From Lachnospiraceae bacterium (GTDB lineage Bacteria > Bacillota > Clostridia > Lachnospirales > Lachnospiraceae), in the NCBI GenBank assembly GCA_021201095.1, contig JAJQFO010000205.1, positions 39,067 to 75,307 on the forward strand: a stretch of DNA of 36,241 nt. Direction: 5' to 3'. How positions within the stretch are numbered: the first letter of the stretch is position 1; the number at the start of each line of letters is the position of its first letter. Made by a program: the position numbers and the translations under genes. The notes under the pieces are model-generated. The model did no database searches, was not told the origin of the DNA, and saw only the letters and a program-made list of their open reading frames with translations. Shown piece by piece: positions 20,355 to 36,241 of this stretch.

Positions 20355-21296
20355 CTACAGACAGCACAGATACCTTCCGCAGATTACGTCCTCGACCGCC
20401 AGTCCCAGTGCGTCGAATAAGGTGATTTCCTCCTCAGACATTCTGCCCGGGATCTGGCCCAGCAGGATCTGTCCGATGGAGCCTTTGATGTGCTCTTCTG
20501 TGATCAGGCCTTCTGAAAGCGGGATCAGGTATTCGCCGGATTCTTTTTTCAGGGCTTCGATCTGATCTGCATAGAGGGAGGATCTGGCCATCAGCGCAGA
20601 TGTTACCTCACGGGTCGTCGGACTGAAGGTTCCGACTGCATTGATGTGAGTGCCAGAGCGGATCCATTCTGCCTCAAGGTATGCTTCCTTGCTCGGAGTG
20701 ACGGTGCAGACAATGTCGCAGTCCAAGACCGCCTCTTTGGGAGAATCGCACAGGATCACCGGCCGGCCGAATTTCGCTTCCATTTCGTTTTTATAGACTT
20801 CGGCGGCTTCCCGGCGGATATCGTAGATTTTCACGGTTTCAATCCCCGGGCGGACGCAGAGGATCGCTTCCAGGTGGGACCGGCCCTGTGCTCCGGCTCC
20901 GATGATGCCAAGCGTTTTTGCATCCTTCCGCGCCAGCAAATCGGTCGCCACGGCGCTGACCGCACCGGTGCGGATCTGGGTAATTGCATCTGCGTCTGCC
21001 AGCCCTGCGCAGGTCCCATGAGCCGACTCAAACACCATGACATAGCCATTGTGGGAGGAATAACCAGTGCCCACGTTTTGTGGAAAAGAATTGACAACCT
21101 TAGCACCGAAATAATCATTTTCGCCCAGATAAGCAGGCATAAAGCCAAGCACTTCCCCGTGCGGCAGCTTTGCCATTGCGCGGACAGGCTGGCTGGCCTT
21201 TTTGCTCTCCAGTGCCATCATTGCTTCCCGCATGAGGGCAATGCAGGTATCCATCTGCAGTTTCTCAAATACTTCTTCTTTTTCTACAATCTTCAT
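20355..21296 (-). CDS. Ornithine cyclodeaminase / mu-crystallin family protein
   Basis: The 313 residues match the family throughout: KLPHGEVLGFMPAYLG, then GYVMVFESAHGTCAGLADADAITQIRTGAVSAVAT, the NAD-binding GIIGAGAQGRSHLEA (~132-146), and NAVGTFSPTTREV. Members deaminate ornithine to proline, reduce cyclic imines or oxidise alanine, so the exact substrate is open. GGAG lies about 10 nt before the ATG. It is the last gene of the peptide locus, 201 bp after the M61-like peptidase, and is followed by a strong terminator. That setting suits processing of amino acids or cyclic imines released from imported peptides (inference). Confidence 0.88.
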   Translation of the reverse strand: MKIVEKEEVFEKLQMDTCIALMREAMMALESKKASQPVRAMAKLPHGEVLGFMPAYLGENDYFGAKVVNSFPQNVGTGYSSHNGYVMVFESAHGTCAGLADADAITQIRTGAVSAVATDLLARKDAKTLGIIGAGAQGRSHLEAILCVRPGIETVKIYDIRREAAEVYKNEMEAKFGRPVILCDSPKEAVLDCDIVCTVTPSKEAYLEAEWIRSGTHINAVGTFSPTTREVTSALMARSSLYADQIEALKKESGEYLIPLSEGLITEEHIKGSIGQILLGQIPGRMSEEEITLFDALGLAVEDVICGRYLCCL

Positions 21297-21497: not shown

Positions 21498-22907
21498 TTA
21501 ACCCCGGACACTCCACCGGTATCCGTCCCGTTCTTCTCCCGTCAGCTCTACATCTCCTCTGTGGGATGCCTTGTTCACCTTTACACGGCAAGGTTCTACG
21601 TTAAAATATCCGCCGAATCCGTCCGGATCCGGCACCAGCTCGCCGCCGTTTGACATGTTTTCAAAATCAGGCGTCAGGTCAAAACCGGCTATTTCACTGC
21701 CGATTCGGAGGAAATCTTTATAGTCCGGCTGGGATTCATTCAGCAGCACCAGCTCGATATCCAACAGAGATTTCTCTCCATTGGTTGCCCGACGTATCTG
21801 CGCATCAAGGTTGGACAGGTAAATGATTCCCCTCGCGTAGGGCAGACGCTGCGCCGCACGGTCTTCCCAGTAGAGCCTGCCAAGCGAGATATTATCCAGA
21901 TGGATGTAGGGATTTTCATAATAGGTTGCGGCTTTTTCGTTGATTTCTTCGGCAAGGGCTGATAGCGGTGCGATCCCCATTTCCAGTTGTACCATGACCG
22001 AATAGTACTCGGCGCTGCCCTCGACATACCAGGTGCCCGCTCCAGGCGGATCATCCGAAAGGGAGGGCCAGTTATGCACCATCTCATGCGCCAGCAGAGG
22101 CTGAAGCTCTTCCGCCGTCAAACCATCCTGCGTTCCATAGCCAAACAGATAGGAGCGCTGCGCCGCCGTACCGCCGCCGCCGGGGAAATGGTTTCTCCGC
22201 GCGAAGACACGATAGTCGCCGCCCTTATCCTGAAATTTTTTTGACAGGTACAGAAACATCTTTGTGATGTTTTTCGCTGTCCCTTCCGCGTCGATCGGCA
22301 TTTCGTCAAACCAGTAAAAACCGACCGTTCCCTCTTCGACCGCATGTACCTTTCCGACCGCATAGAAGGTAAACAGCAGCTCCATCACGGAAATCTCTTT
22401 GGTAATGGACTTTTCGGCACTGTAGCTCCAGATACCGCGGCATCCGTCCGGCAGCAGGGAAAGATCCCAGGTAAGCGTGCTGGAAAGCTTCTGCTCCAGA
22501 TTCTCCGGATGGATCAGAAACGTGGCTCCTGCCCCGTTCACGCCGCCTTTTTCCGCGACAAGGTCAAAATAAGGACTGGAGCGGTAGCCTTCCGGCTGCA
22601 CCCTCGGCAGTATCCGGTAGCTGCAGCGAAGCTTTCCCTGTGTTTCCCGGTCGGAAATGTAGCGCTGGCGATAGATAAAACCCATTTCTGCTTCACCGTC
22701 CCTGGCGGAATACTCGATTTCTCCATTATCATCAGAAAAGCGGAGCGTTTCAAGCGGACAGAAAGGTATTTTTACGATTTCCAGAATCCGCGCCGCGAGG
22801 ACACCGCCCGCTTCCGTTTTCTGGTCAGATTCCCAGGTGATCTGAAATGCGGAAACGGTATCTGCCGTGCGATCCCATTCCGGCTGAATTTTCAGACAAA
22901 AATCCAT
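21498..22907 (-). CDS. M61-like zinc metallopeptidase
   Basis: The 469-residue protein has no signal peptide, so it is probably cytoplasmic. It carries the zinc motif HEMVHNW (274-280), followed by GTWYVEGSAEYYSV with Glu296 as the likely third ligand. This arrangement is found in M61 (glycyl aminopeptidase-type) and related M1-clan enzymes. The N-terminal half is beta-rich, as in those families, but diverged from the canonical M61 N-domain. No PDZ domain is seen. GGAG lies 9 nt upstream of the ATG. It lies between the class V aminotransferase and cyclodeaminase genes, consistent with trimming small peptides brought in by the Opp system. Sequence specificity cannot be judged. Confidence 0.82.
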   Translation of the reverse strand: MDFCLKIQPEWDRTADTVSAFQITWESDQKTEAGGVLAARILEIVKIPFCPLETLRFSDDNGEIEYSARDGEAEMGFIYRQRYISDRETQGKLRCSYRILPRVQPEGYRSSPYFDLVAEKGGVNGAGATFLIHPENLEQKLSSTLTWDLSLLPDGCRGIWSYSAEKSITKEISVMELLFTFYAVGKVHAVEEGTVGFYWFDEMPIDAEGTAKNITKMFLYLSKKFQDKGGDYRVFARRNHFPGGGGTAAQRSYLFGYGTQDGLTAEELQPLLAHEMVHNWPSLSDDPPGAGTWYVEGSAEYYSVMVQLEMGIAPLSALAEEINEKAATYYENPYIHLDNISLGRLYWEDRAAQRLPYARGIIYLSNLDAQIRRATNGEKSLLDIELVLLNESQPDYKDFLRIGSEIAGFDLTPDFENMSNGGELVPDPDGFGGYFNVEPCRVKVNKASHRGDVELTGEERDGYRWSVRG

Positions 22908-23091: not shown

Positions 23092-24411
23092 TTACTTTCC
23101 ATACTCTTTCCGAAAAACCCTCTCCAGCACCTCCATCAGGCGATCGATGTGTTCCTTCCTATTATAATAATGGAGGCTGACTCTCACGTACTGACGGACA
23201 GCCACCGTAATATCCGCCCGCTCCAGTTCTTTTTTCAGCACCTCCCGGTATTCTTCCGGGCAGAGAAAGCTAATGCTTCCGCTCCAGGTCGCCGGGTTTT
23301 CTGAGCCGAGCAGCTGCAGGCGCACCCCCGACTGATACGGATTAAAGTCGTTCCGGCCAGACTGTTTTAGAGCAGACATTTCCAGCTCTGAAGAGTTTAG
23401 AACTGAATGGTTTGGAGCTGAATAGTTTGAATCTGAATCGCTCAGATCAGTCTGATTCAGTTCTGAACGAATCAGCCCGGACTGTTTCAGACAGTCCCGA
23501 TAGTATATTTCCAGCTCCCGGATATGAGCCGCAATATTTTCCACTCCGATCTCCAGGAGCAGCCCCACGCTCTCACTCATGACGGCAATTCCGTAATTAT
23601 TCCCGGTGCCGGATTCCATCCGGGGGGCACCGCTGACAAAGGTGGGGACACCTGCCTCGGTAAATCCCGGGCGAAAATCCAGACTATCTATTCGAATATT
23701 GCCGCCGCACACCGGAGGTGTGATTTTGTCCATAATTTCCCTTCTACAATAACAGAATCCAGCGCCCATCACACCGAGCATGCCCTTAAAGCTCGAGGAA
23801 GCCAGGATGTCAATTTTCATTTTCTGCACGTCCACCGGCAGGCGGCCCATTCCCTGCACGGCGTCCACCGAAAGCAGAATCCCGCGGCTCCGGCATACCT
23901 CACCCAGACGGGCAATGTCTGTCACATAGCCGGAAGAGGACTGCACCCAGGAAAGGGCGATCACCTTTGTCCGTTCTGTTATTTTCTGTATATAATCCTC
24001 CGCGCGGAAAACTCCGTTTTCGTTCTGTACCCAGACAGGCTTTATGCCCTTTTTCTGCGCCGCCGCCCAGGGCAGCCAGACCGTGGCAAAATCGCCGTTG
24101 CCGAGGATCACCTCATCCCCTTCCTCAAACGGATAAAACGAGGAAAGCAGATTGTTTCCCTGCGTGGTATTATCTGTAAAAAAAATATCCTCGGAGTCAG
24201 CGTGAATCAGTTCCCCAAGACGTTTTCGGCATTTCTCTCTGATGCTAAAGCTGTCTCCGTGTGTGGGGTGTCCCAGATGATACGCATAATCATCCAGGAA
24301 TTCCCTGGCGGTTTTCAATGTGCGTTCCGGCTGAAGTCCCAGTGTGGAGCAGTCCATATAGGCCCTGTCCCCCAGCCAGGCATATTCATCCAAAAACCTT
24401 TTTTCAATCAT
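23092..24411 (-). CDS. Class V aminotransferase (PLP) with a pentapeptide-repeat insert
   Basis: The 439 residues belong to fold-type I, class V PLP enzymes (cysteine desulfurase/isopenicillin epimerase-like). The PLP lysine is Lys209 in ASSSFKGMLGVMG; Asp183 in SVDAVQGMGR contacts the pyridine ring; FFTDNTTQGNN is the phosphate-binding region. The reaction may be transamination, epimerisation or C-S lyase chemistry and cannot be fixed. Residues 311-355 are nine five-residue units (SELNQ, TDLSD, SAPNH, SVLNS, SELEM and so on) inserted in the C-terminal small domain, just before GVRLQLLGSENP. GGAGG lies 5 nt before the ATG. It is downstream of the S9 peptidase and upstream of the M61-like gene, so it probably acts on amino acids or peptides from the same pathway. 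Confidence 0.85.
   Translation of the reverse strand: MIEKRFLDEYAWLGDRAYMDCSTLGLQPERTLKTAREFLDDYAYHLGHPTHGDSFSIREKCRKRLGELIHADSEDIFFTDNTTQGNNLLSSFYPFEEGDEVILGNGDFATVWLPWAAAQKKGIKPVWVQNENGVFRAEDYIQKITERTKVIALSWVQSSSGYVTDIARLGEVCRSRGILLSVDAVQGMGRLPVDVQKMKIDILASSSFKGMLGVMGAGFCYCRREIMDKITPPVCGGNIRIDSLDFRPGFTEAGVPTFVSGAPRMESGTGNNYGIAVMSESVGLLLEIGVENIAAHIRELEIYYRDCLKQSGLIRSELNQTDLSDSDSNYSAPNHSVLNSSELEMSALKQSGRNDFNPYQSGVRLQLLGSENPATWSGSISFLCPEEYREVLKKELERADITVAVRQYVRVSLHYYNRKEHIDRLMEVLERVFRKEYGK
23347..23481 (-). repeat. Nine 15-bp tandem repeats encoding S-x-L-x-x pentapeptides
   Basis: On the + strand the unit is like TTTRGARCTGAATRG; the middle copies (for example TTTAGAACTGAATGG, TTTGGAGCTGAATAG, TTTGAATCTGAATCG) are the least diverged. 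The units code for residues 311-355 of the aminotransferase. Confidence 0.85.
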
Positions 24412-24543: not shown

Positions 24544-24665
24544 TCCGCCATCACTTTTCTCATAAATATTGAGGGAACCAGTCCGCCATCACTTTTCTCA
24601 TAAATATTGAGGGAACCAGTCCACCATTACTTCTATCATAGATACCGATGGAACCAGTCCGCCAT
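24544..24665 (-). repeat. 38-bp tandem copies of the S9 peptidase gene's 3' end
   Basis: On the - strand, three full units (24665-24628, 24627-24590, 24589-24552) are followed by a short partial copy. Each starts with ATG and reads M(A/V)DWF(H/P)(R/Q)YL-stop in its own frame. Unit 1 is the real gene end; units 2 and 3 are nearly identical to each other. They fill half of the gap to the class V aminotransferase gene; the other half (24412-24543) shows nothing recognisable. Confidence 0.92.
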
Positions 24666-26810
24666 CGTCCGGTAATAATGCTGCAGCTGGTCCGGGTCGG
24701 ACGGCTGCTCATGCCCGCAGTGCGGGTACAGGACCATTTTGATCGGAAAATCCTCCGCATGCGAGTCCTTGAGCGCCACAAACAGCTGGTGCGCCCCTTC
24801 CACCGGGCAGCGGTAATCCTCCATCCCATGCAGGATCAAAAACGGTGCGGAGACCTTTTCCATGCCGCAGATTGGCGATTTCTCGATCTCGTGTACCATA
24901 AATTCCCCGAAGGTCGGGTAGCCCTCTGAAGACCCCTGCATATCGGACGATGCATAGTCGATCAGGTTGTTCACGACCGAGCGCTGCGTAATGTATGCCC
25001 GGAAACGGTTCGACCGGGTGGCGATATAATTGGTCATATAGCCCCCGTAGCTTCCGCCGGTCAGACCTATGCGGTCAGAATCAATCCAGGAGAAACGGCT
25101 GCAGGCCTCGCTGACAAACTGCAGAATATCCATATAGGCAGAGCCGTCAAACGCCCGGTCCTGGTTCCGGTGAACATCCCCGTAGCCGGAGGAGCCTCTC
25201 GGATTGCAGAAAATCACGCCGAAGCCCTCGCCCGCAAAGCATTGCATCTCCAGGTCAAAGCCATAGGTATAAAACGGATGCGGTCCTCCGTGGATGTAGC
25301 AGATGCAGGGATACTTTTTCCCTGCTTCCATCCCCTGAGGCGGCAATGCAAATCCATGCACCCGGCTCTCCCCGTCCAGTGTATCAAAGAAAAAATCCTC
25401 CGCGCGGCTCAGCGCGACATCCTGAAGCCATGCTTCATTCGACTGCACCAGAAGCTCCATCCGGCCGTCCTTTTCATCCATCAGATAATAGGCTTCCGGG
25501 CGGTCGGTTTCCGTTTTCGTGACCAGCACCTTCCCGTTATGCGGAACGCCCATCCCGTTATAGGCAGCCTTTCCTCCGGCCAGCTTTTCCGGACGGTGGT
25601 TTTCCCCATAAATCGGCACCTTCCAAATCGTGCCCGCCCCAAAGCTTCCGCTGTGAAAAAGGACACTGCAGCCGTCCGATGAAATACGCATTTTCTCCAG
25701 CCCTCGCCCGCAGCCGGCATTGTAGGGGAACTGCACAGAGTCAAAGCACTCTTCCGTTTTCTCAAAAATCCTTACCTGCTCCTGCCCGTCCGGCGTAATC
25801 CGGTAAAGACTGCAGGACGGATAGGTCCCGGTCGGCTTTTCCGGATAGTCCAGGATGCCGACGATAATGTATTTTCCGTCCGGCGTAAAAACAGGCGTTA
25901 CCGGATTCGGATAGGAAACCACCATCTGATCCTTCGTCACGCGCGTGATCACGCAGGTATCCACATCAATCAGCAGTACATCCATTGCGATACTGATCTC
26001 TTTATCACAGTAGAGATTCGATTCACAGAGAATATGGCGGCTGTCCGGCGCCCAGCCTGCGTGCATAAAATTCGCATTCTCGCTGGTGATTCGCCGGGCC
26101 TTCGCGCTGCCGTCCGACGGCACCACCCAAAGCTGCATCACCTCCGGCTGTGCAAAACCCAGCCCGTCAAATTTATAGCCAAAGTCCGTGATGACCACCG
26201 GCTCCTTCGCCCGCTCTCTGGCGTAAGCCGCCTCCTCATCCGGATCCGGGATCTGCTGCAGCCATTCCTCATCCATATCGCCGGATGAAAAGGACGTAAA
26301 TGCGATCCATTTTCCGTCCGGCGACCATATTGGATTCATCAGCCCGAACCGCATCGTGGTCAGCTGACGGCAGCTTTCCGTGTCCAAATCACAGACAAAC
26401 AGCTGGGTACCGGCCTTTTCCACTGCAGATAGAAACAGAATTTTCGTGTAATCCGGTGAAAAGACCGGGTTCGTCTCCCCGTGTCCGCCGGCGGTAATCC
26501 TTTTCTGCCTGCGGTTTTGCCCACTGACCTGTATGCCATTTTGTCTGCCGTCCTGCACACTATCCGGTCTGCAGTCCTGCTCACTGTCCTGTCCACCGCT
26601 CTGCGCGTTGTCTTGTCTGCTGTCCCGTCTGTCAAAGTTGTTTGCGTCCGTTCGTGCCTGCAAGACGATCTGACTGACCCTTTTTCCATTCTCCTCATCA
26701 TATCTGGAATCCGCGTAAAGAATTTCGTCCGTCAGCGGATTGTATTCCCCAAAAGAAATGGTTTCTTTCTTTTTAAAATCTTCAAAGCTGCTTTTCCTTT
26801 TCTCCGCCAT
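24636..26810 (-). CDS. S9 family peptidase (prolyl oligopeptidase/acylaminoacyl-peptidase type)
   Basis: A 724-residue serine peptidase with no signal peptide, so probably cytoplasmic. The first ~450 residues form a WD40/TolB-like beta-propeller (NPIWSPDGKWIAF, PVFTPDGKYIIVG) that limits access to short peptides. The C-terminal alpha/beta-hydrolase domain carries Ser587 (GGSYGGYM), Asp665 (HGMEDYRCP) and His700 (PHCGHEQPS). Residues ~61-104 are a Gln/Asp-rich tetrapeptide-repeat insert in the first blade. Its start overlaps the end of the upstream GntR-S9 gene by 29 nt in another frame, with AAGGA 7 nt before the ATG, so translation is probably coupled. The 3' end is tandemly duplicated. It presumably degrades peptides imported by Opp (inference). 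Confidence 0.93.
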   Translation of the reverse strand: MAEKRKSSFEDFKKKETISFGEYNPLTDEILYADSRYDEENGKRVSQIVLQARTDANNFDRRDSRQDNAQSGGQDSEQDCRPDSVQDGRQNGIQVSGQNRRQKRITAGGHGETNPVFSPDYTKILFLSAVEKAGTQLFVCDLDTESCRQLTTMRFGLMNPIWSPDGKWIAFTSFSSGDMDEEWLQQIPDPDEEAAYARERAKEPVVITDFGYKFDGLGFAQPEVMQLWVVPSDGSAKARRITSENANFMHAGWAPDSRHILCESNLYCDKEISIAMDVLLIDVDTCVITRVTKDQMVVSYPNPVTPVFTPDGKYIIVGILDYPEKPTGTYPSCSLYRITPDGQEQVRIFEKTEECFDSVQFPYNAGCGRGLEKMRISSDGCSVLFHSGSFGAGTIWKVPIYGENHRPEKLAGGKAAYNGMGVPHNGKVLVTKTETDRPEAYYLMDEKDGRMELLVQSNEAWLQDVALSRAEDFFFDTLDGESRVHGFALPPQGMEAGKKYPCICYIHGGPHPFYTYGFDLEMQCFAGEGFGVIFCNPRGSSGYGDVHRNQDRAFDGSAYMDILQFVSEACSRFSWIDSDRIGLTGGSYGGYMTNYIATRSNRFRAYITQRSVVNNLIDYASSDMQGSSEGYPTFGEFMVHEIEKSPICGMEKVSAPFLILHGMEDYRCPVEGAHQLFVALKDSHAEDFPIKMVLYPHCGHEQPSDPDQLQHYYRTMADWFHRYL
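26499..26630 (-). repeat. 12-bp tandem repeats encoding an xxQD tetrapeptide insert
   Basis: About eleven 12-bp units (+ strand form like TCCTGTCYRCYG) encode SRQD, GGQD, SEQD, SVQD, GRQN and similar in the second S9 peptidase, residues ~61-104. A 24-bp higher-order period is visible in the middle. Confidence 0.8.
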
Positions 26811-29673
26811 TTTGCGTTCCTTTCAGATATGTGTCAAACCAGTCCACGATTTCCTGTATGTGCCGTTTCTGAAAATGCAGCAGCCCGGTGCGGCTGACCC
26901 CATGGTTTTCCCCGGGGAACATGACCAGCCGGACAGGGACGTCCCGGCGCCTTTCTTTGATGGAAATAAACATCTGCTCCGCCTGTTCAAAGGAGCAGCG
27001 GTAATCCTGATAGCCGTGCAGCAAAAGCAGCGGCGTGCGGATTTTGTCCATATCGCGAATGATGCTTGTCCGGGCACGGTCTGTCAGGCATTTGCGGACA
27101 TTTACATCCCGGTAATCCATGGCAGCGGAATAAAAACCAATATCTCCGGTGCCATAGGAGGTCGCCTTGTTGACAAACACACGCTGTCCGGCTGCCGCCG
27201 CAAAACGATCCGTCTTCATGATGATTTTGCATGTCATATAGCCGCCGTAGCTCCCGCCGGTGATGCCGACGCGCTTTTCATCCACATAGCCCTTCGCAAT
27301 CACCGCATCCAGAAACTGCATCAGGTCTTCGTACGCAGACTCGCCCCAGGAATCCTCCTCGTTGGAAAAGCTGAGTCCATAGCCATAGGAACCCCTCGGA
27401 TCGCAGGTAATGACCACATAGCCTGCGTTTGACAAAATCTGTATCTCATGCCAGAAATCATTGGTAAAGCAGACCGTAGGGCCGCCGTGGATATAAAGGA
27501 CGGCCGGATATTTTTTCCCTTCCTCAAAGCGGGCCGGGAGGCATACCCGTCCATGGATTGTGACCTTCCCATCCCGGGAGGGGACGTCCAGCTCTTCTGT
27601 CTCGCCGAGGGAGCACTCATTCAGCCAGGGGTTCGAATCCAGCACCCGCCGGAAGCTGCCCGAACGAACATGATACAGGTAGAGGTCGCGGATGGTGCGA
27701 TAGTCGCCTCTCGTCAGAAGAAGATTCCCCTTTACAGGCAGGCAGAATTCATGAATGGAAAAAGCGCCCCCTGCTACCAGCTCCGGGGCAGAATTTCCTT
27801 TTAAAGAGATCCGGTAAAGCCTCTCCGTTCCTTTCTCATAACCTAAAAACCAGGCATATTTCCCATCCACTGTGAAATACGGCTTTTCATCACCATACTG
27901 TGTCCGGCTCGAGGCGAGATTTTCCAGTCCCGGTCCTTCCTTCTCGGAATCACGGAACAGACAGGTGGTGGTGCCATCGGAAAGATTGAGCTTGTTCAGC
28001 CAGACGGTACTGCCGCCATTTTCAAAATAATAAAAGGGATACACCAGTGCGGCTCCGTCTTCTGTGAAAGCTGCCGGTACGTCCGCTGTAAGAAAAGCTC
28101 TGCTGGTCAGCTGCCGAAGGGTGACGTCCTTACCGGCTGCCGAACCGTCCCCGCTCTCCGCAGAAAGGCCTTTGCAGTCCGTCAGAACGTCCGCACAGTC
28201 TGCCAGGAGCAGCTCCTGTGAAGAGTAATGCGCGCCGGTATAAATCTGCCCATAGCAGGCAATCTGCTTCCCGTCCGGTGAAAACACCGGCAGATGGCAC
28301 GGAACCCTGCCGTTGGTCTTCCGCCAGGCGGCGCCGGAATCCCTCTGCTCGTCCTGAACCGTCGGTTTCTGAGACTTCCGCCAGCCTCCAGTCTGGTCCG
28401 TTCCCGTCAGGCGCTGCGGCAAAATTCTCTGCTTCCCGTCCGGTGAAACGATGCCGATGCAGGAAATGCTGCCGTCCAGCACTCCTTTGCACTCATCGCG
28501 TTTATAATCAATCGTTGTAATTTCAACCGGTTCCCATTCTTTTTTCTTCTTCCAGGCCGCTTTCTGCTCCGGAGTCATCTCCGTGAACGTCAGACCTTCT
28601 TCGATCTCCGTTTCCCAGAGCGGAGCTTCAAAGCAGAAGTAGTCTGTCTGTGTGCAATAATCAAAATTCAGAATGCCATGGCGCACCGTTGTAAGCTGCC
28701 TGGGCAGCTTGCCATCCTCCAGAATCCAGATCTGGTATTCTCCGGATCGGTCAGAGAGATAAGCAATTCGTCCATCCGCAAGGAAGCGCGGATGGCGGGT
28801 GCATTCCGACAGCCTTTTCTTCGCGGATAACTCTCCCTCTGCCGGTAAATTTCCCTCTGCGGATACCTCTGCTGATAAATCTCCTTCTGCAAGCGGATAC
28901 TTTTCCCCCGTTTTCAAATCAATCATCCACACAGCCGGCAGGAACCGTCCGTCCTCCACTCTGGCCTTGTATTCTGTCAGAAGTGCCCGCTTCCCGTCCG
29001 GAGATATCTGCGGATCGGAAAGATATACAATTTCATCCATACTTCCCGCAGAAAAAGCCCTGCGTGATTTCCACAGCACCGGAGCGTCAAAAAATTCTTC
29101 GTCCTTTTCCAGACAAAGATCCGTCTTCAGCGCGGCGAGCGCTTTTTCCTCATTTTTTTCCATGAGAGCTTTCAGCAGCTCACGATGCCTGTTTTCAATT
29201 TCCCTGTTGGAATTATCCCGGAAAGCAATGTTGGAAAAGGTCCCGTCCGCCTTTGTCAGCAGACCGTCCAGCGTATCCTCGATAAAGGTATCCTGGCACA
29301 GCTTTGCCAGTCCCATATGAAAATCATGATTCAGAACCGGGCCATCCGGCGGAAAAAGCTTTTTGATCTCCGAGGTCTCCACGTCCTTTATAATGCGGTG
29401 AACCACCAGCGATTCGATCACAAAGCGCAGCCGCTGGATCCTCAGAAAATCAGCGTCATTATAAACATTCAGCTTATAGCCCTTTCTTGGATAGCTCCTG
29501 ATCAGGCCTTCCTGCGCCAGCCGGTGGAGCGCTTCCCTGGCCGTCGCCTTGCTGACGCCCAGGGTTTTGCAGATGTCATTTTCCACAATCCAGTCATCCG
29601 GCTTATATTTTCCTTCTGTAATATCCTGCAGAAGCAGGCTGTAGCATTTATCCGTCAATGTTTCTGTCTGCAT
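26782..29673 (-). CDS. GntR-family regulator fused to an S9 peptidase
   Basis: One uninterrupted 963-residue frame. Residues 1-70 are a GntR winged helix-turn-helix (LGVSKATAREALHRLAQEGLI is the recognition region). Residues ~75-190 resemble a shortened FCD ligand-binding domain: RLRFVIESLVV, LNHDFHMGLAKL and NRHRELLKALMEKNEEKAL are family-like. Candidate metal positions are Asn115, His119, His163 and Asp185, where FCD proteins usually have Asp and three His. From ~215 a beta-propeller begins, then an alpha/beta hydrolase with Ser808 (GGSYGGYM), Asp890 (HGYQDYRCS) and His924 (GENHGVS). GGAG lies 7 nt before the ATG and nothing suggests a join by sequencing error. It sits between an aminotransferase gene and a second S9 gene. 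It may repress or activate the locus while hydrolysing the inducer (inference). Confidence 0.92.
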   Translation of the reverse strand: MQTETLTDKCYSLLLQDITEGKYKPDDWIVENDICKTLGVSKATAREALHRLAQEGLIRSYPRKGYKLNVYNDADFLRIQRLRFVIESLVVHRIIKDVETSEIKKLFPPDGPVLNHDFHMGLAKLCQDTFIEDTLDGLLTKADGTFSNIAFRDNSNREIENRHRELLKALMEKNEEKALAALKTDLCLEKDEEFFDAPVLWKSRRAFSAGSMDEIVYLSDPQISPDGKRALLTEYKARVEDGRFLPAVWMIDLKTGEKYPLAEGDLSAEVSAEGNLPAEGELSAKKRLSECTRHPRFLADGRIAYLSDRSGEYQIWILEDGKLPRQLTTVRHGILNFDYCTQTDYFCFEAPLWETEIEEGLTFTEMTPEQKAAWKKKKEWEPVEITTIDYKRDECKGVLDGSISCIGIVSPDGKQRILPQRLTGTDQTGGWRKSQKPTVQDEQRDSGAAWRKTNGRVPCHLPVFSPDGKQIACYGQIYTGAHYSSQELLLADCADVLTDCKGLSAESGDGSAAGKDVTLRQLTSRAFLTADVPAAFTEDGAALVYPFYYFENGGSTVWLNKLNLSDGTTTCLFRDSEKEGPGLENLASSRTQYGDEKPYFTVDGKYAWFLGYEKGTERLYRISLKGNSAPELVAGGAFSIHEFCLPVKGNLLLTRGDYRTIRDLYLYHVRSGSFRRVLDSNPWLNECSLGETEELDVPSRDGKVTIHGRVCLPARFEEGKKYPAVLYIHGGPTVCFTNDFWHEIQILSNAGYVVITCDPRGSYGYGLSFSNEEDSWGESAYEDLMQFLDAVIAKGYVDEKRVGITGGSYGGYMTCKIIMKTDRFAAAAGQRVFVNKATSYGTGDIGFYSAAMDYRDVNVRKCLTDRARTSIIRDMDKIRTPLLLLHGYQDYRCSFEQAEQMFISIKERRRDVPVRLVMFPGENHGVSRTGLLHFQKRHIQEIVDWFDTYLKGTQNGGEKEKQL
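28819..28890 (-). repeat. 18/12-bp repeats encoding an AEGxLx hexapeptide insert
   Basis: Units encode AEGDLS, AEVS, AEGNLP and AEGELS (residues ~262-285) in the first propeller part of the GntR-S9 fusion. One copy is short by two codons. The period is 18 bp, or 12 bp for the short unit. Confidence 0.7.
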
Positions 29674-29817: not shown

Positions 29818-31047
29818 TTAGCGCAGGTGCTCCATAAAGTCCATGGACTTTTGCAGTTCCTTTGAGGGCACGGCCAGACTGTAGCGGTAAAACTGTGCGC
29901 TGTCATGGTAATCCGTCCCCACATCCCCGTAAAACAGGGCTTCCTCTTCCAGAAAGCGGCGGAGCGCTTCGTCGTCCATGCCTGTCCGGCGGTAATCTAC
30001 CCAGGCAACATAGGTGCCCTGCGGATGCACCACGCGGGCGCCGGGAAGGATTTCCGGCAGTCTCTGCTCCAATATGCGGACATTTTCCCGGATCACTTCG
30101 CACAGTTCTTCCACAAAGGCTTTTCCCTCCTCTGTGTAAGCTTCCATCAGTCCCGCGTAAAGCATCGGGTCAATGCTGCCGTAATGGTCGGCATATTTCT
30201 GGTGTATGTATCGCCCCCGCAGCGCAGGATTCGGGATCAGCACATTCGCATGATTGACGCCGGTCAGACTCATGCACTTGCCCAGAGAAGTACAGGTCAT
30301 CGAAAGTCCTTCAGTGCCTGAGATCTCCCCAAATGGAACGGCTCTTACGCCCTCATCCAGTATGACTTCAGCAAAAATTTCATCCGAATAAACCGGAACC
30401 TGATAGCGGCGCGATAAGGCGTCCAGCTCTTCTAACTCTTCTCTCGGGAAGAGCGTTCCGGTCGGGTTATTCGGATTGCAGAGGACGATCAGGCCGATCT
30501 GACCGGAAGCCAGGCGTTTTTCCAGAGCCGGAAAATCGATCCGGTACCCGTTTCGCCGTCCAGTCATCTTCTGCCCCTGTTTTTCCTGCTCCTGAGCCAT
30601 CTGCGCCTGGTCTTCCGGCTCCAGAAGCCGCAGATATTCAAACGGAAGCCCCATTCTTGAGGCGGCCTGGGCGTAGCGGTTGTATCCGGGGCTGAACACA
30701 AGGAGGCTTTTTTCTTTTGAGCAGAAAATCCGTATCGCACTCGCCAGCCCGAAAATCGTGCCGTGGGTCGGCACAATCCATTCCGGACTGACCTCCCAGC
30801 CGCGGACATGCTGCATCCACCAGACCACCCGCTCATTGTAGCGGTCATTTTGCATGGTAAAGGCATACAGGCCGCGCTCTGCACAGGATGCCACCCCGCG
30901 TGAAAACGCCGGGCAGGTCGGAAAATCAAATTCCGCGCCCCAGTAGCACACCAGCCCCGCATCCTTTACCCGCTGCGGAGTCATCATATCCTTCAGCGAC
31001 TGACTGTTGCTTCTGTCGACACGTCTGTCAAAAAGAGAGCTTCCCAT
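29818..31047 (-). CDS. MalY/PatB-type PLP aminotransferase (cystathionine beta-lyase-like)
   Basis: The 409 residues are a fold-type I aminotransferase. The opening FDRRVDRSNSQSLKDM resembles the MalY/PatB N-terminus. Key residues are Asn194 (LCNPNNPTG), Asp222 with Tyr220 (VYSDEIF), and PLP-binding Lys257 (TSLGKCMSLTGVNHAN). Such enzymes cleave cystathionine/cysteine C-S bonds or transaminate. I preferred the ATG at 31047 (AAGGA about 12 nt upstream) to an in-frame TTG at 31074. Residues ~145-162 (Gln/Glu-rich) look like a small loop expansion. It follows oppF by 90 bp and precedes the GntR-S9 gene by 144 bp, with no convincing terminator or promoter in either gap. It may therefore be co-transcribed. 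Confidence 0.85.
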   Translation of the reverse strand: MGSSLFDRRVDRSNSQSLKDMMTPQRVKDAGLVCYWGAEFDFPTCPAFSRGVASCAERGLYAFTMQNDRYNERVVWWMQHVRGWEVSPEWIVPTHGTIFGLASAIRIFCSKEKSLLVFSPGYNRYAQAASRMGLPFEYLRLLEPEDQAQMAQEQEKQGQKMTGRRNGYRIDFPALEKRLASGQIGLIVLCNPNNPTGTLFPREELEELDALSRRYQVPVYSDEIFAEVILDEGVRAVPFGEISGTEGLSMTCTSLGKCMSLTGVNHANVLIPNPALRGRYIHQKYADHYGSIDPMLYAGLMEAYTEEGKAFVEELCEVIRENVRILEQRLPEILPGARVVHPQGTYVAWVDYRRTGMDDEALRRFLEEEALFYGDVGTDYHDSAQFYRYSLAVPSKELQKSMDFMEHLR

Positions 31048-31137
31048 AATAACATTGATTCCTTCTTTCTGCAACTTTTATTCCCACAAAGCAACGAGCC
31101 AGGCAGCCGTGCTTCTTCTGCCATTTATTTTTGCCCT

Positions 31138-32109
31138 TTACCCCAGATGGTGGCACGCCGCATAGTGATCTCCGCCCAGCGGTTTCATCTGCGGGGTACT
31201 GTTTTTACATTCGTCTGTCGCGTAAGGACAGCGCGCGGCGAAGCGGCATCCCGGTCCGGGGTTCACAGGAGAGGAAACCTCTCCCTGCATTCCTTTTGAT
31301 TCACGGCTTTTTTCATAGTCCGGATCTGCTACCGGCACCGCATCCAGCAGGCCGACCGTGTAAGGATGCGCCGGATGGTCGTAAACCTCATCGACATCGC
31401 CGATCTCCACTATTTTCCCGGAATACATCACTGCCACGCGGTCCGAAATATAGCGGACGACGGAGAGGTCATGCGCCACCACCAGGTAGGTCAGGTTTCT
31501 CTGCTCCTGGATGTCGATCAGCATGTTGATGATCTGCGCCTGCACGGACACATCCAGAGCGGAGGTCGCCTCGTCGCAGACGATAAATTCCGGGTTGAGC
31601 GCGAGCGCTCTGGCAATTCCTACACGCTGGCGCTGGCCGCCGGAAAATTCATGCGGGAACCGGTTGGCATGCTCCCGGTGCAGCCCTACACAGTCCAGCA
31701 GATCGTAAACCATCTGCTGCCGTTCTGCCCGGTTTGCGCCGATCGAATGAATATCCAGTCCCTCCGAAATAATCTCGCCGACTGTAAAATAGGGGTTCAG
31801 CGAAGCATACGGATCCTGGAAAATCATCTGCATTTTGCAGGCCAGCTTTTCCTTGCGGATCTGGCGCTGAGAATAATTTGTAATATCTTTTCCATGGAAA
31901 AAAATGCTTCCGCCGTCCGAATTATAAAGATTTACAAGCGTCCGGCCCACCGTGGTCTTTCCGCAGCCGGACTCTCCCACCAGGCCAAGTGTCGTGCCTG
32001 CTTCAATCGTAAAGGAGATATCATCCACGGCATGGAGGGTTTTCCCATGGCCAAGGCCGAAATATTTTTTCAGGTTTCTGACATCCAGCAAAACTTCTCT
32101 GTCACTCAC
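31138..32109 (-). CDS. oppF: Oligopeptide/dipeptide ABC transporter ATP-binding protein (OppF-type)
   Basis: One of two ATPases driving peptide import at the inner face of the membrane. The 323 residues show Walker A GESGCGKTT, the signature FSGGQRQRV, Walker B FIVCDEATSALD and the OppD/F-type C-terminal extension (GCRFAARCPYATDEC). The start is a GTG with GGGAGG 11 nt upstream; it follows oppD by only 18 bp. In Opp systems OppF and OppD form a heterodimer. OppF is assigned by gene order and length, since peptide and nickel importers share this architecture. Confidence 0.9.
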   Translation of the reverse strand: MSDREVLLDVRNLKKYFGLGHGKTLHAVDDISFTIEAGTTLGLVGESGCGKTTVGRTLVNLYNSDGGSIFFHGKDITNYSQRQIRKEKLACKMQMIFQDPYASLNPYFTVGEIISEGLDIHSIGANRAERQQMVYDLLDCVGLHREHANRFPHEFSGGQRQRVGIARALALNPEFIVCDEATSALDVSVQAQIINMLIDIQEQRNLTYLVVAHDLSVVRYISDRVAVMYSGKIVEIGDVDEVYDHPAHPYTVGLLDAVPVADPDYEKSRESKGMQGEVSSPVNPGPGCRFAARCPYATDECKNSTPQMKPLGGDHYAACHHLG

Positions 32110-32127: not shown

Positions 32128-33195
32128 TCAGCTCTCTGCCTGTGTCCGCGCAAGCTTCAGTACGTCCTGGTCGCGTCCGACCAGCTGCGGCACTTCGACC
32201 GGACATTCCCGGTCAAGCAGCCAGCAGTTCGCGGAATGCTCCTCCGTAATCTGGTAGCTGCACGGCGCGTGATCCATACAGACATTCATGCAGTACGGGC
32301 ACCGGGCCGCAAACCCGCATCCGCGCGGCGGTGCAAACAGATCCGGCGGCGTCCCCGGAATGCTGTAAAGGCGGCTGCGCTCCTGCGCGTGCAGCTGCGG
32401 CACAGACCCCAGCAGCCCCCAGGTGTACGGGTGCCGCGCATGATAAAAAATATCATTCAAAGAGCCTGTCTCAATGATCTGTCCCGCATACATGACTGCC
32501 ACCCGGTCTGCCATCCGCGCCACGACTCCCAGGTTGTGCGTGATGAAAATGATGCTCATATTCGCTTCCCGCTTCAGATCATTCATCAGATTCAGGATCT
32601 GCGACTGAATGGTCACGTCCAGTGCCGTCGTCGGCTCATCCGCAAACAGGATCGCCGGATCACAGGACAGAGCCATCGCAATCATCACGCGCTGCCGCTG
32701 CCCGCCGGACATGGTATGCGGAAAGCGTTCAAATACCTGTTCCGGATTGGGAAGTCCCACTTTCGCAAGCAGGGAAATCGCCTTCTCCCTCGCCTCCTGA
32801 TAAGGAACCTTTGCATGCTTGCGGATCGCCTCGCAGATCTGCTTTCCCACCTTCGTGGTGGGGTTCAGAGAAGTCATGGCATCCTGGAAAATCATGGAAA
32901 ACTCTTTTCCGCGCAGCTTTTCCATTTCCTTATCGCTGAGCCTGGCAATATCTACGTCCAGACTGCCGTTGGTATAGCGGATCGACCCGCCCCGGATTTC
33001 CGCAGGAGGCTCCGGATTCAGGCGCATGACCGTCTGCACGGTCACAGATTTCCCGCAGCCGGATTCTCCGACGATGGCCAGCGTCTCTCCCCGGTCGAGG
33101 GAAAAATCAATCCCCCGCACCGCCTGCACCTCACCGTTTGCTGTTAAAAATGATACCTTCAGGTTTTCAACTGTCAGCAGCCGTTCTTTTCCCAT
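32128..33195 (-). CDS. oppD: Oligopeptide/dipeptide ABC transporter ATP-binding protein (OppD-type)
   Basis: This is the partner ATPase of OppF. The 355 residues contain Walker A GESGCGKS, the signature MSGGQRQRV and Walker B ILFADEPTTALD. The cysteine-rich C-terminal region (FAARCPYCMNVCMDHAPC...NCWL) is typical of OppD/DppD proteins. GGGGAAGG lies just before the ATG. It lies 73 bp downstream of oppC. Confidence 0.9.
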   Translation of the reverse strand: MGKERLLTVENLKVSFLTANGEVQAVRGIDFSLDRGETLAIVGESGCGKSVTVQTVMRLNPEPPAEIRGGSIRYTNGSLDVDIARLSDKEMEKLRGKEFSMIFQDAMTSLNPTTKVGKQICEAIRKHAKVPYQEAREKAISLLAKVGLPNPEQVFERFPHTMSGGQRQRVMIAMALSCDPAILFADEPTTALDVTIQSQILNLMNDLKREANMSIIFITHNLGVVARMADRVAVMYAGQIIETGSLNDIFYHARHPYTWGLLGSVPQLHAQERSRLYSIPGTPPDLFAPPRGCGFAARCPYCMNVCMDHAPCSYQITEEHSANCWLLDRECPVEVPQLVGRDQDVLKLARTQAES

Positions 33196-33268: not shown

Positions 33269-34255
33269 CTACGCGTGCGCCTTCATTCTTTTAAGCTTCC
33301 GAAGTCTCCGTGCATTGTATTCCTCATCGCGCAGCCTCGGATCCAGGGCGTCACGGATACAGTTGCCCAGCATGAAAAACGCAAAAATCATCACTGTGAT
33401 CACCACAGACGGCCATAAAAACAGGTGGAATTTGGAAGGAATCAGGAAATAGCTGACGCCGTCCGTCGACAGCTGCCCCAGCGAAACTCCCGGCGGAGTC
33501 ACGCCCAGACCGATATAGGCCATACCGGCTTCTGTAAAAATCGCACCCGGGATCGAGGAAGAAAGACCGACGACAATATTTCCGAGGATATTTGGAAGAA
33601 TGTGCCGGAAAATAATCCTGCCAGCCCCGGCTCCCTGTACCTTTGCCGCCAGCGTAAATTCCCGGTTTTTAAACTGCAGCACACGCCCGCGGAAGGAGCG
33701 GGCCGACCCCATCCAGCCGGATAACGCCATGGCGATGATCAGGGAGCGTACCGAGCCGCCCATCACAATAATCAGAAGAATCAGGTAAATCAGCGAGGGG
33801 ATACAGAGCATGATATCGCAGATGCGCATGATGGCCATATCCACCCAGCCGCCGCACCAGCCAGCGATGGCACCAATCACCGTTCCCAGGATGAAGGGAG
33901 CAAGCGCTCCAAGAAAGCCTATAACTAAGGAAGCCCTCGCGCCGACCCAGACGCGTGTCCACATATCGCGCCCTGTCACATCCGTTCCAAAGAGGTGCTC
34001 CAGGGAAGGTTTCAGATTTGTGTGCAGCAAATCGGTAGCGGTATAGGAATACGGTGAAAGGATGGGGGCAAAAATGGCCAGCAGGATCATGATCAGGATG
34101 ATCACAATGCAGACATCCGCCAGCCGGTTCCTCAGCAGACGCTTCCAGACCTCCGGCCAGTAGCGGACCGAGGGACGCACAATCTGCTCACTGTCCCGCC
34201 GGCTGTCATCCACCGGGGTAAAGTCAAATGTTGTTTTCTCATCTTTTCCGTTCAT
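33269..34255 (-). CDS. oppC: Peptide ABC transporter permease (OppC-type)
   Basis: The 328 residues have a ~40-residue cytoplasmic N-terminus, one early membrane segment (LADVCIVIILIMILLAIFAP), the periplasm-side TDVTGRDMWTRVWVGAR block and a BPD_transp_1 domain of about five segments. The EAA-type loop contacting the ATPases is around RIIFRHILPNILGNI. These features are standard for OppC. AAGGAG lies 5 nt before the ATG. It is downstream of oppB by 81 bp. Confidence 0.92.
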   Translation of the reverse strand: MNGKDEKTTFDFTPVDDSRRDSEQIVRPSVRYWPEVWKRLLRNRLADVCIVIILIMILLAIFAPILSPYSYTATDLLHTNLKPSLEHLFGTDVTGRDMWTRVWVGARASLVIGFLGALAPFILGTVIGAIAGWCGGWVDMAIMRICDIMLCIPSLIYLILLIIVMGGSVRSLIIAMALSGWMGSARSFRGRVLQFKNREFTLAAKVQGAGAGRIIFRHILPNILGNIVVGLSSSIPGAIFTEAGMAYIGLGVTPPGVSLGQLSTDGVSYFLIPSKFHLFLWPSVVITVMIFAFFMLGNCIRDALDPRLRDEEYNARRLRKLKRMKAHA

Positions 34256-34336: not shown

Positions 34337-35254
34337 TCACATAATTTTCACTCTCGGATCAATCAGTCCGTATACCAGGTCCACAATAAAGTTTGCCGCC
34401 ACCACGACCACCGCCTGAAAGACAACCAGGCCAAGCGCCATCGTATAATCAAGCTCATTGATAGAAGTGACGAAATACCGCCCCAATCCCGGTATGGAGA
34501 AAATCTTTTCGATCACATAAGATCCCATCAGAAGCCCGGCAATCTCCAGGCCAAGGTTTGTAATCAGAGGCAGAATGGCGTTGCGGATCTGATGAAAAAC
34601 GGTAATCCGCACACGGGAAAGACCTTTTGCTTTCGCAGTTTTTAAATAATCCTGCTGTCCGACCTCTAGCATCAGCGTGCGCATGGAACGGCAGTGGCTG
34701 GCTACCAGTCCCAGTGCAAGGCAGAGCGTCGGAATGATGGTATGGCGGAAGCTGGTCCATCCGCCGGCCGGCAGCAGCCCAAGCCTTACCGACAGAACCA
34801 GCTGAAGGACTGCCGCCAGCACATAAGAAGGAATGGCAGTCGTCAGAATGGTCAGCAGCTGTGTCGAAAGATCGACCGCGCCGCCCCGTCTCCCGGCTGA
34901 GATTATCCCCAGAAGAATTCCTGTCGGAATGCCGATTATCATCGCCTGGAGGGCAAGCTGTGCCGTGACCGGGAAATACTGGATGATCACATCATTCACG
35001 CTCCGGCCCGCATGCGCCAGGGAATACCCGAAATTCAGATGGACGAGATTATTCATAAAGCGCAGATACTGCTGCCATAAAGGGTCATTCAGGCCATAAT
35101 AGTCCATCAGCTTCTCCGCGTTTGTCATATCCAGCGGGTTAGCAACAATAAACGGATTGCCCGGAAGCATCCGGATCAGAAAAAAACAGATCGTAGCGAT
35201 CGCCCAGATCGTGGCAACCGATATCAGAAGACGTTTTAAAATATATTTTGCCAT
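34337..35254 (-). CDS. oppB: Peptide ABC transporter permease (OppB-type)
   Basis: The 305 residues start with the usual OppB N-terminus (MAKYILKRLLISVATIWAIATICFFLIRMLPG), a first membrane helix followed by GDP-like text (here GNPFIV). Several more helices and the EAA-type loop (VFHQIRNAILPLITNLGLEIAGLL) follow. I chose the ATG at 35254 because the longer frame back to 35416 is not hydrophobic or family-like, although the ribosome binding site here is weak (GAGAAAAG). It follows oppA by 151 bp. Confidence 0.92.
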   Translation of the reverse strand: MAKYILKRLLISVATIWAIATICFFLIRMLPGNPFIVANPLDMTNAEKLMDYYGLNDPLWQQYLRFMNNLVHLNFGYSLAHAGRSVNDVIIQYFPVTAQLALQAMIIGIPTGILLGIISAGRRGGAVDLSTQLLTILTTAIPSYVLAAVLQLVLSVRLGLLPAGGWTSFRHTIIPTLCLALGLVASHCRSMRTLMLEVGQQDYLKTAKAKGLSRVRITVFHQIRNAILPLITNLGLEIAGLLMGSYVIEKIFSIPGLGRYFVTSINELDYTMALGLVVFQAVVVVAANFIVDLVYGLIDPRVKIM

Positions 35255-35353
35255 AGCTTTTCTCAACTTTCCGGCAACCGAGATCCTGCCATCTCTCCGG
35301 CGAAAGGTCATCAGGCAGGAAATCCAAAAAGGACACAGCAGCTTATTTTCATG

Positions 35354-35379
35354 CTGCCCCGATGCTGACACCGGGGCAG
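35354..35379 (-). other. Intercistronic hairpin between oppA and oppB
   Basis: CTGCCCCG (35354-35361) and CGGGGCAG (35372-35379) form an 8-bp stem with no T-run on the - strand. An alternative GCAGC/GCTGC stem overlaps its downstream side. Such hairpins after substrate-binding-protein genes often protect the upstream mRNA and give more binding protein than permease; that role here is inference. Confidence 0.4.
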
Positions 35380-35405
35380 ACACAAATATACAGGTGTTCT
35401 TTTGA

Positions 35406-36241
35406 TTAGTGCGCATACACCACTACATTTGCAAAGGAATATCCATAATCCAGAGTGGATTCATACGTATATCCCTCTACATAGTCCTGGGTGATGAAAT
35501 AGCTGCCGCCCTCCTGGATCGGGAAGTATACATACGCGCTGTAGAGCATCTGCTCCGCCTCGGCCACCTTGGAGAAATAGCTTTCCTCGTCAAAATCAAC
35601 GTATGCGTCAGCAATCAGTGCGTCGTATTCCTCATCGGCGTGCATGGATGCCATGGAAGCGGGGACGCCGGAAGCCTGGAAGCCTGCCGGGTCAGACACC
35701 TCGCCGGTGGTAATCCAGTAGTTCAGAAGCTCCAGCTCATCGTCCGTATTTACGGAGAGCTGCTGCAGATAAATATCGAAATCCATGTAAACCATCGACA
35801 TAACAGCGGAAGAAATCGGCTGCAGGTTGATCGTAATATTGGTCAGCCCCAGATCATTTTCCCAGATGGAAACAGCCGTTTCCGCGAGAAGCTTCTGCGC
35901 GTCTGTTTCAAAGGTGAGGTAGGTAATCGTTGGAAGCTCAGATACATCGCTGTAGCCCAGCTCGTCCAGAGCCGCCTGCAGGTATTCCTTTGCTGCATCC
36001 GTATCGCCGGAAAGCGGAGCAACCTCCTCCAGCTCATATTCGTCTACATAAGCTGTTCCTTCCGTCGTGCCGGTCACAGAGGATGCCACATAGCGGTTCG
36101 TCGCCTGTCCGCTGCCGAGTACAGAAGCAATCGCCTCACGGTCAAGGGCATAGCAAAGAGCTTTGCGGAAATTCTCATTCTGCATCAGAGCGGTCACATC
36201 ATCGCCTCTGGAGGTGAAGCCGGCTCCGTCCGTATAAGTGC
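35406..36241 (-). CDS. oppA: Peptide ABC transporter substrate-binding protein (OppA-type, 5' partial)
   Basis: The C-terminal ~277 residues of a family 5 extracellular solute-binding protein; the frame is open to the right window edge, so the signal peptide and N-terminal lobe are outside. Family-typical text includes NENFRKALCYALDREAIASVLG near the left of the fragment, YLTFETDAQKLLAETAVSIWENDLGLTNITINLQPI in the middle and YSAYVYFPIQEGGSYFITQDYVEGY near the end. It would be a lipoprotein that captures peptides outside the cell. It is the first gene of the visible opp operon, so the promoter of the locus lies beyond the window. Confidence 0.9.
   Translation of the reverse strand, partial: TYTDGAGFTSRGDDVTALMQNENFRKALCYALDREAIASVLGSGQATNRYVASSVTGTTEGTAYVDEYELEEVAPLSGDTDAAKEYLQAALDELGYSDVSELPTITYLTFETDAQKLLAETAVSIWENDLGLTNITINLQPISSAVMSMVYMDFDIYLQQLSVNTDDELELLNYWITTGEVSDPAGFQASGVPASMASMHADEEYDALIADAYVDFDEESYFSKVAEAEQMLYSAYVYFPIQEGGSYFITQDYVEGYTYESTLDYGYSFANVVVYAH

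Follow-up and report, generated by a model that had tools for sequence, protein, structure and literature searches.

In a draft genome of a Lachnospiraceae bacterium, one gene encodes a GntR-type regulator joined to a complete S9 serine peptidase. This GntR-S9 fusion is real and rare. Judging from its sequence and its gene neighborhood, the protein is probably a working regulator-enzyme of its own operon, that is, an autoregulatory repressor-peptidase. Coordinates refer to the window (the whole stretch of 36,241 nucleotides that was analyzed) unless a locus or contig is named, and all of the window genes described here lie on the minus strand.

One open reading frame encodes a regulator and a peptidase

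The fusion gene (26782..29673) is a single uninterrupted open reading frame with an ATG start, and it encodes 963 amino acids. The initial annotation had described a 963-residue frame with a GntR domain, a shortened FCD domain, and an S9 peptidase, and the reading frame and the Pfam domains bear this out. Residues 1–70 (29464..29673) are the GntR winged helix-turn-helix (PF00392 at residues 8–66, E = 3e-13). Residues 71–190 (29104..29463) are the shortened FCD sensor domain, which we assigned from a match to PF07729 (residues 114–184, E = 9e-7) and from an alignment. This match covers profile positions 51–121 of 125; the initial part of the FCD model is unmatched. A linker, read by eye, spans residues 191–212 (29038..29103). 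It is followed by the beta-propeller of the S9 peptidase, which we call S9-A (residues 213–690, 27604..29037; PD40 repeats with E = 4e-8, and alignment), and by the catalytic alpha/beta-hydrolase domain (residues 691–963, 26785..27603; PF00326 at residues 740–952, E = 2e-42). The GntR, FCD, PD40, and Peptidase_S9 matches all exceed their curated Pfam cut-offs.

The catalytic triad reported in the initial annotation is complete: Ser808 (codon at 27250–27252), Asp890 (27004–27006), and His924 (26902–26904) are identical across all four of the fusion proteins that we found. With the Peptidase_S9 domain, the Ser-Asp-His triad, and the propeller repeats all present, the protein belongs to the S9 peptidases and is predicted to be a hydrolase. 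The GntR, FCD, and S9 domains are each over the Pfam cut-off in all four fusions, and the N-terminal winged helix places all four in the GntR superfamily. The peptidase half also matches solved structures of S9 family peptidases (PDB 8wt1 and 7ep9), which have the PD40 propeller and triad domain as in the fusion; the fusion adds an N-terminal regulator. When the regulator half alone was compared to solved structures, the matches were mostly confined to residues up to about 105. None of the 16 NCBIfam families that matched the fusion reached its cut-off. The best match, Dpp5, was far below, and we rejected membership in both Dpp5 and the lasso-peptide isopeptidases for this reason.

The window copy has a low-complexity in-frame insert at residues ~264–290 that is absent from two other fusions in the alignment. 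Similar inserts, with tandem repeats, are found in two other genes of the window, at 26543–26593 (the second S9 peptidase) and 23388–23438 (a class V aminotransferase).

To our knowledge, GntR-enzyme fusions are known chiefly as MocR proteins, in which the enzyme fold senses. Like the fusion, members of the MocR/PdxR/GabR subfamily have a GntR DNA-binding domain and an enzyme fold in one polypeptide. Unlike MocR, whose enzyme part is an aminotransferase domain of fold type I, the fusion has an S9 beta-propeller serine peptidase with a complete catalytic triad, and an FCD sensor is kept in between. As no aminotransferase match was found in any of the four fusions, the protein is not a MocR, although it may work like a regulator-enzyme of the MocR type. 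The initial annotation knew of no described GntR-FCD-S9 fusion, and we found no description of a GntR-S9 fusion in open-licence PMC full text either (articles were mostly judged by title and the start of the abstract). One candidate, PMC11878206, contains both “GntR” and “Peptidase_S9”, and we rejected it as a prior description: in the excerpt used here, GntR is a neighboring gene only.

The fusion recurs in other genomes and is rare

The same colinear fusion is present in three other draft genomes, with 47–50% identity to the window protein. The four fusion genomes (G000, which is the window genome, G450, G1125, and G598) represent three genera and two families. A scan of the genome_contigs collection identified 11 loci, two of which have the whole fusion: L039 (884 amino acids, 47% identity) and L040 (876 amino acids, 50% identity). 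These are the G598 and G1125 loci, respectively, with identical fusion BLAST scores. All four genomes are drafts of 90–390 contigs, and L039 and L040 are from uncultured or metagenome-assembled genomes. According to the initial annotation, the fusion would be refuted by a sequencing frameshift or an assembly join, or by homologs in which the two parts are always separate genes. We rejected an artefact on the strength of the uninterrupted fusion in three further genomes, and “always separate” is false, as the parts are fused in four genomes; separate forms also exist.

Full-length matches (profile positions 1–879 or 2–879) were found in 2 of 397 genomes in the family search (G000 and G450), 2 of 392 in the order search (G000 and G598), and just G000 in the class and phylum searches (1 of 391 and 1 of 398). 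The genomes in these searches were drawn from larger groups, and some fusions could have been missed, because scoring was limited to the top two candidates of each genome at E-value limits of 1e-40 or 1e-90. Within narrower groups, the fusion is found in 2 of the 11 genomes of G450’s genus (G450 and G1125), in 1 of 7 in G598’s genus, and in 1 of 19 in G598’s family; it is absent from all 35 of the same-genus relatives of the window genome. We rejected spread by phages, as 600 candidate stretches in viral_contigs included no relative. Among plasmids, 563 records match the fusion and none of them covers 80% of the protein; the best ten of the 563 matches start from residue 203 on, so they include the peptidase part only.

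The fusion gene lies in a peptide import and degradation locus

The initial annotation placed the gene in a locus for oligopeptide import and degradation, which agrees with the Dpp/Opp-type transporter and peptidase genes around it. In the direction of transcription, the window begins with the gene for a DppA/OppA-like binding protein, which the contig end truncates to its C-terminal part (35406..36241). This gene appears to be divided between two contig ends, those of C176 and C104, with its N-terminal part at L122:8246–9177. Next are DppB/OppB-like and DppC/OppC-like permeases (34337..35416 and 33269..34255) and DppD/OppD-like and DppF/OppF-like ATPases (32128..33195 and 31138..32109). The fusion gene sits between a PatB-like C-S lyase or class I aminotransferase gene (29818..31074; TIGR04350, below cut-off) and the gene for a second S9 peptidase, S9-B (24636..26810, 724 amino acids), which overlaps the 3' end of the fusion gene by 29 bases. 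Beyond S9-B are a class V aminotransferase (23092..24411), a 469-residue M61-like protein with an HEMVH motif (21498..22907; Pfam M61 with E = 0.027, below cut-off), and a member of the ornithine cyclodeaminase/mu-crystallin family (20355..21296), whose matches of the pyrroline-2-carboxylate-reductase type are below cut-off. An amidohydrolase at L122 is most similar, among NCBIfam families, to Xaa-Pro dipeptidase; its score of 255 bits, where the cut-off is 500, indicates similarity only.

These genes suggest that the locus may serve the use of proline-rich peptides. We propose this because Dpp/Opp import, two S9 peptidases, the M61-like protein, the Xaa-Pro-dipeptidase-like amidohydrolase, and the ornithine-cyclodeaminase-family gene are found together. 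Also, the use of hydroxyproline is controlled by an FCD regulator, HypR (excerpt of PMC6608401).

Unfused relatives and the origin of the fusion

We read 11 loci with an unfused S9-A: L041–L048, G308 (L116), G342 (L117), and G1333 (L143). In all 11, S9-A is a separate gene (664–721 amino acids as longest open reading frames) and S9-B follows directly. Other gene content was determined by BLAST against the window’s and L048’s genes, within the stretch examined. PatB is present in 10 of 11 (not L117), the M61-like protein in 10 of 11 (not L041), the amidohydrolase in all 11 (weakly in L041), the ornithine-cyclodeaminase-family gene in 7, and Dpp transporter genes in 4 (L048, L116, L117, and L143). 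The HEMVH protein, which occurs in the fusion genomes as well, possibly represents an undescribed peptidase family.

Two of these loci, from Treponema (L048) and from G342 (L117), which belongs to the window’s family, contain stand-alone GntR genes with a short FCD domain in the same operon type. In Treponema, a 195-residue GntR is encoded first in the gene row (L048:2774–3361). In G342, a 216-residue GntR (L117:14206–14856) is encoded just ahead of the ornithine-cyclodeaminase gene, and a second GntR of 200 residues is divergent (L117:14904–15506). These regulators are 30–32% identical to the regulator half of the window protein, have no peptidase attached, and are more closely related to that half than any other protein we found. 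They share its invariant pocket residues (see below). Unlike the fusions, they are encoded apart from S9-A, and the FCD model is matched over nearly its whole length by two of the three, whereas the fusions match its second half only. Such a GntR was not found in 8 of the 11 unfused loci (L041–L047 and L116), within the stretch examined.

In a tree of S9-A that includes all of the unfused loci except L143 and is rooted on S9-B, the four fusion peptidase halves form one clade (SH-aLRT 100), and therefore one fusion event suffices. The two GntR-bearing unfused loci split first, as a pair (95), and the rest are together at 94. In a tree of GntR proteins, a branch with support of 91/81 separates the regulator halves, together with the three stand-alone GntRs, from 23 other GntRs (22 from related genomes and L049). 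As the root is drawn, a general GntR (L017) is placed with the locus proteins; this placement, long-branch warnings, and the odd letter make-up flagged for one of the G342 regulators (L117_GntRb) make the GntR clade tentative. The simplest history would be that the regulator was in the operon, was fused to the peptidase once, and was lost elsewhere.

G1333 has the same operon type (L143:6274–14445; S9-A, S9-B, PatB, M61-like protein, and amidohydrolase), flanked by a divergent MocR gene (L143:14595–16049, plus strand). As GntR plus aminotransferase, this MocR is a different regulator-enzyme fusion.

Purifying selection acts on both halves in the closest pair

The closest pair of fusions (G1125 and G450) shows purifying selection on each half: dN/dS is 0.027 for the winged helix, 0.026 for FCD, 0.131 for the propeller, and 0.084 for the S9 domain, with dS of 0.46–0.84. 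The linker is identical in this pair at 19 of 19 residues (over 19 codons, dN is 0 and dS is 0.20). We took dN/dS from this pair only, as dS among the three diverged lineages was saturated or not computable. Amino acid identity among those three lineages is 53–57% in the winged helix, 38–40% in FCD, 23–26% in the linker, 44–52% in the propeller, and 69–73% in the S9 domain. Within the winged helix, the wing motif PRKGY is kept in all four fusions. Position 46 of the recognition helix, which we equate with Arg55 of HypR, is Gly in three of the four; it is Ser in the stand-alone GntR of Treponema, which likewise lacks the Arg.

The sensor domain looks like a shortened FCD pocket

Arg83, Glu87, Asn115, His119, His163, and Asp185 are invariant in seven of seven proteins (four fusions and three stand-alone GntRs). 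As given in the excerpt of PMC6608401, the pocket and metal residues of HypR are Arg92, Glu96, Asp138, His142, His186, and His208. The spacings 83–87, 115–119, 119–163 (44 residues), and 163–185 (22 residues) equal HypR’s 92–96, 138–142, 142–186, and 186–208, whereas the stretch from Glu87 to Asn115 is 14 residues shorter than HypR’s Glu96 to Asp138. In the numbering of TM0439, again from that excerpt, Asp130 is replaced by Asn and His196 by Asp. Instead of three metal-binding histidines, then, there are two at HypR spacing, and the third position is Asp in all seven proteins. By these spacings, the pocket looks kept, with an Asp-to-Asn and a His-to-Asp change.

In the FadR subfamily, the alpha-helical C-terminal domain has 150–170 residues (excerpt of PMC4494728). 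At about 120 residues (71–190), the fusion’s FCD domain is shorter than this, and the stand-alone GntRs have just 195–216 amino acids in total. In the four fusions, FCD scores 25.8–29.7 bits against a Pfam cut-off of 24.3 bits, from profile positions 51–123 of 125 only. Because the domain is short and His196 of TM0439 corresponds to Asp, metal and ligand binding may differ. The FadR-subfamily (FCD) regulators HypR, TM0439, CitO, and NanR share the winged helix and FCD with the fusion, and HypR, as excerpted, has in common with it the pocket Arg and Glu and two of the three metal-type histidines. Unlike these four regulators, the fusion has an S9 peptidase attached.

A candidate operator lies at the dppA promoter

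The first gene of the operon is dppA, and the window does not include its promoter, which is at the end of C104 in G000 and on C145 in G598. The dppA upstream region of all four fusion genomes carries TTGACATRYTCAG, and this first candidate box includes a -35-like hexamer (TTGACA). A second box, TTCA(G/C), lies 32–33 bases beyond it, with a -10-like hexamer between them. This promoter reading was made by eye and is best in G000, G450, and G1125 and weaker in G598. We searched six genomes with the two-box pattern: each fusion genome had one match upstream of dppA, the two unfused genomes (G342 and G308) had none, and a reversed control matched in none of the six. One extra match is elsewhere in G000 (C67). 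Among 123 loci, six match, and all six are copies of the four dppA places in the fusion genomes. We consider the candidate operator to be a lead because the pattern was written after looking at the sequences and includes the -35 hexamer. Two of the four fusion genomes are close kin.

The candidate boxes do not fit the FadR-type TKGT/ACMA consensus, and no canonical TNGT-ACNA site was found in the dppA promoter regions of the four fusion genomes. A scan of L113, L114, L117, L048, L116, and the window regions for TNGT-ACNA gave one match, in the unfused G308 (L116). NanR, which is an FCD-type regulator, is an exception to the palindrome and has direct-repeat operators (excerpts of PMC8012715 and PMC4494728). 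In G342 and Treponema, inverted repeats are visible by eye close to the stand-alone GntR genes (L117:14800–14960; L048:2700–2800 and 3340–3450). They might be the operators of these unfused regulators, and they differ from the boxes of the fusion clade.

How the fusion may work

If the fusion is an autoregulatory repressor-peptidase, with an operon-borne, short-FCD GntR joined to the cytosolic S9-A of that operon, it would act as follows. As a dimer or higher oligomer, it would place its winged helices on the two-box site that overlaps the -35 and -10 of dppA. Imported peptides or their small carboxylate products would bind in the FCD pocket (Arg83 and the Asn/His/His/Asp metal-type site), and the promoter would be released. 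The transporter, the peptidases, and the fusion would then rise together, as expected from the gene order. Finally, the S9 domain would cut the peptides, and once these were gone, the abundant repressor-enzyme would close the operon. Because the fusion gene itself belongs to the operon that its product would control, repressor and peptidase would rise together, which predicts negative autoregulation and a fast shut-off.

It is plausible that the inducer is removed by the fusion’s own peptidase. That domain alone would not account for loss of the inducer, because S9-B, the M61-like protein, and the Xaa-Pro-dipeptidase-like amidohydrolase are co-encoded. We are doubtful, on balance, about the most specific version of this idea, in which the fusion would represent a new class of self-limiting one-component regulators: a GntR repressor that senses imported peptides, acts on the dpp-peptidase operon to which its gene belongs by way of a non-canonical two-box operator, and has its own inducer destroyed by the attached S9 peptidase.

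The repressor half and the peptidase half might instead both work with no allosteric or kinetic coupling, with the join providing one regulator per enzyme. The first three steps above would be the same. A stand-alone GntR and a stand-alone S9-A do occur in one operon elsewhere, where they presumably work unlinked, and among the distant fusions no region is less conserved than the linker. However, the close pair has identical linkers, and the fusion has been kept over three genera and two families even though a repressor made at the level of an enzyme should be costly. We consider simple co-expression a serious possibility, though short of an even chance.

Another proposal, which we think unlikely, is that the S9 half is the sensor: peptide binding or an acyl-enzyme in the propeller or catalytic pocket would move the winged helices, and turnover would be secondary. 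The MocR proteins would be a precedent (excerpt of PMC5320631), a MocR flanks the same operon type in G1333, and the FCD domain is shortened, with about half of its model matched. Still, seven proteins, three of them stand-alone GntRs, have the same FCD pocket residues without exception, and FCD has a dN/dS of just 0.026 in the close pair. Our estimates for the autoregulatory repressor-peptidase and for these two alternatives overlap, and they do not add to one.

The loss of the position-46 Arg in three of four fusions might indicate that the GntR half is a non-regulating relic that serves dimerization or localization. This seems improbable given the low dN/dS of the winged helix in the close pair, the PRKGY wing in all four fusions, and the candidate operator; also, the stand-alone GntR of Treponema lacks the same Arg.

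Last, we give hardly any credence to an artefact of sequencing, assembly, or annotation, or to two products via internal initiation at Met212: the draft of the window genome has 362 contigs and an estimated contamination of 5.35%, and Met212 is present in all four fusions, but the frame is uninterrupted in the three other genomes, and no conserved ribosome-binding site is seen by eye before Met212 (a weak GGGAA in the window and nothing clear in the other three), unlike the purine-rich sites ahead of the starts of the four unfused S9-A genes that we inspected.

In the fusion, a full peptidase lies behind a still-conserved sensor, and the two halves also occur naturally unfused in the same operon type. 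With these natural unfused versions, the question of coupling becomes testable, as the effect of the join on induction threshold, memory, and shut-off. The analysis also supplies a peptide-catabolic locus with a regulator, with a candidate operator, and with a guess as to its class of substrate; this locus is found in several Clostridia-type genomes and in Treponema.
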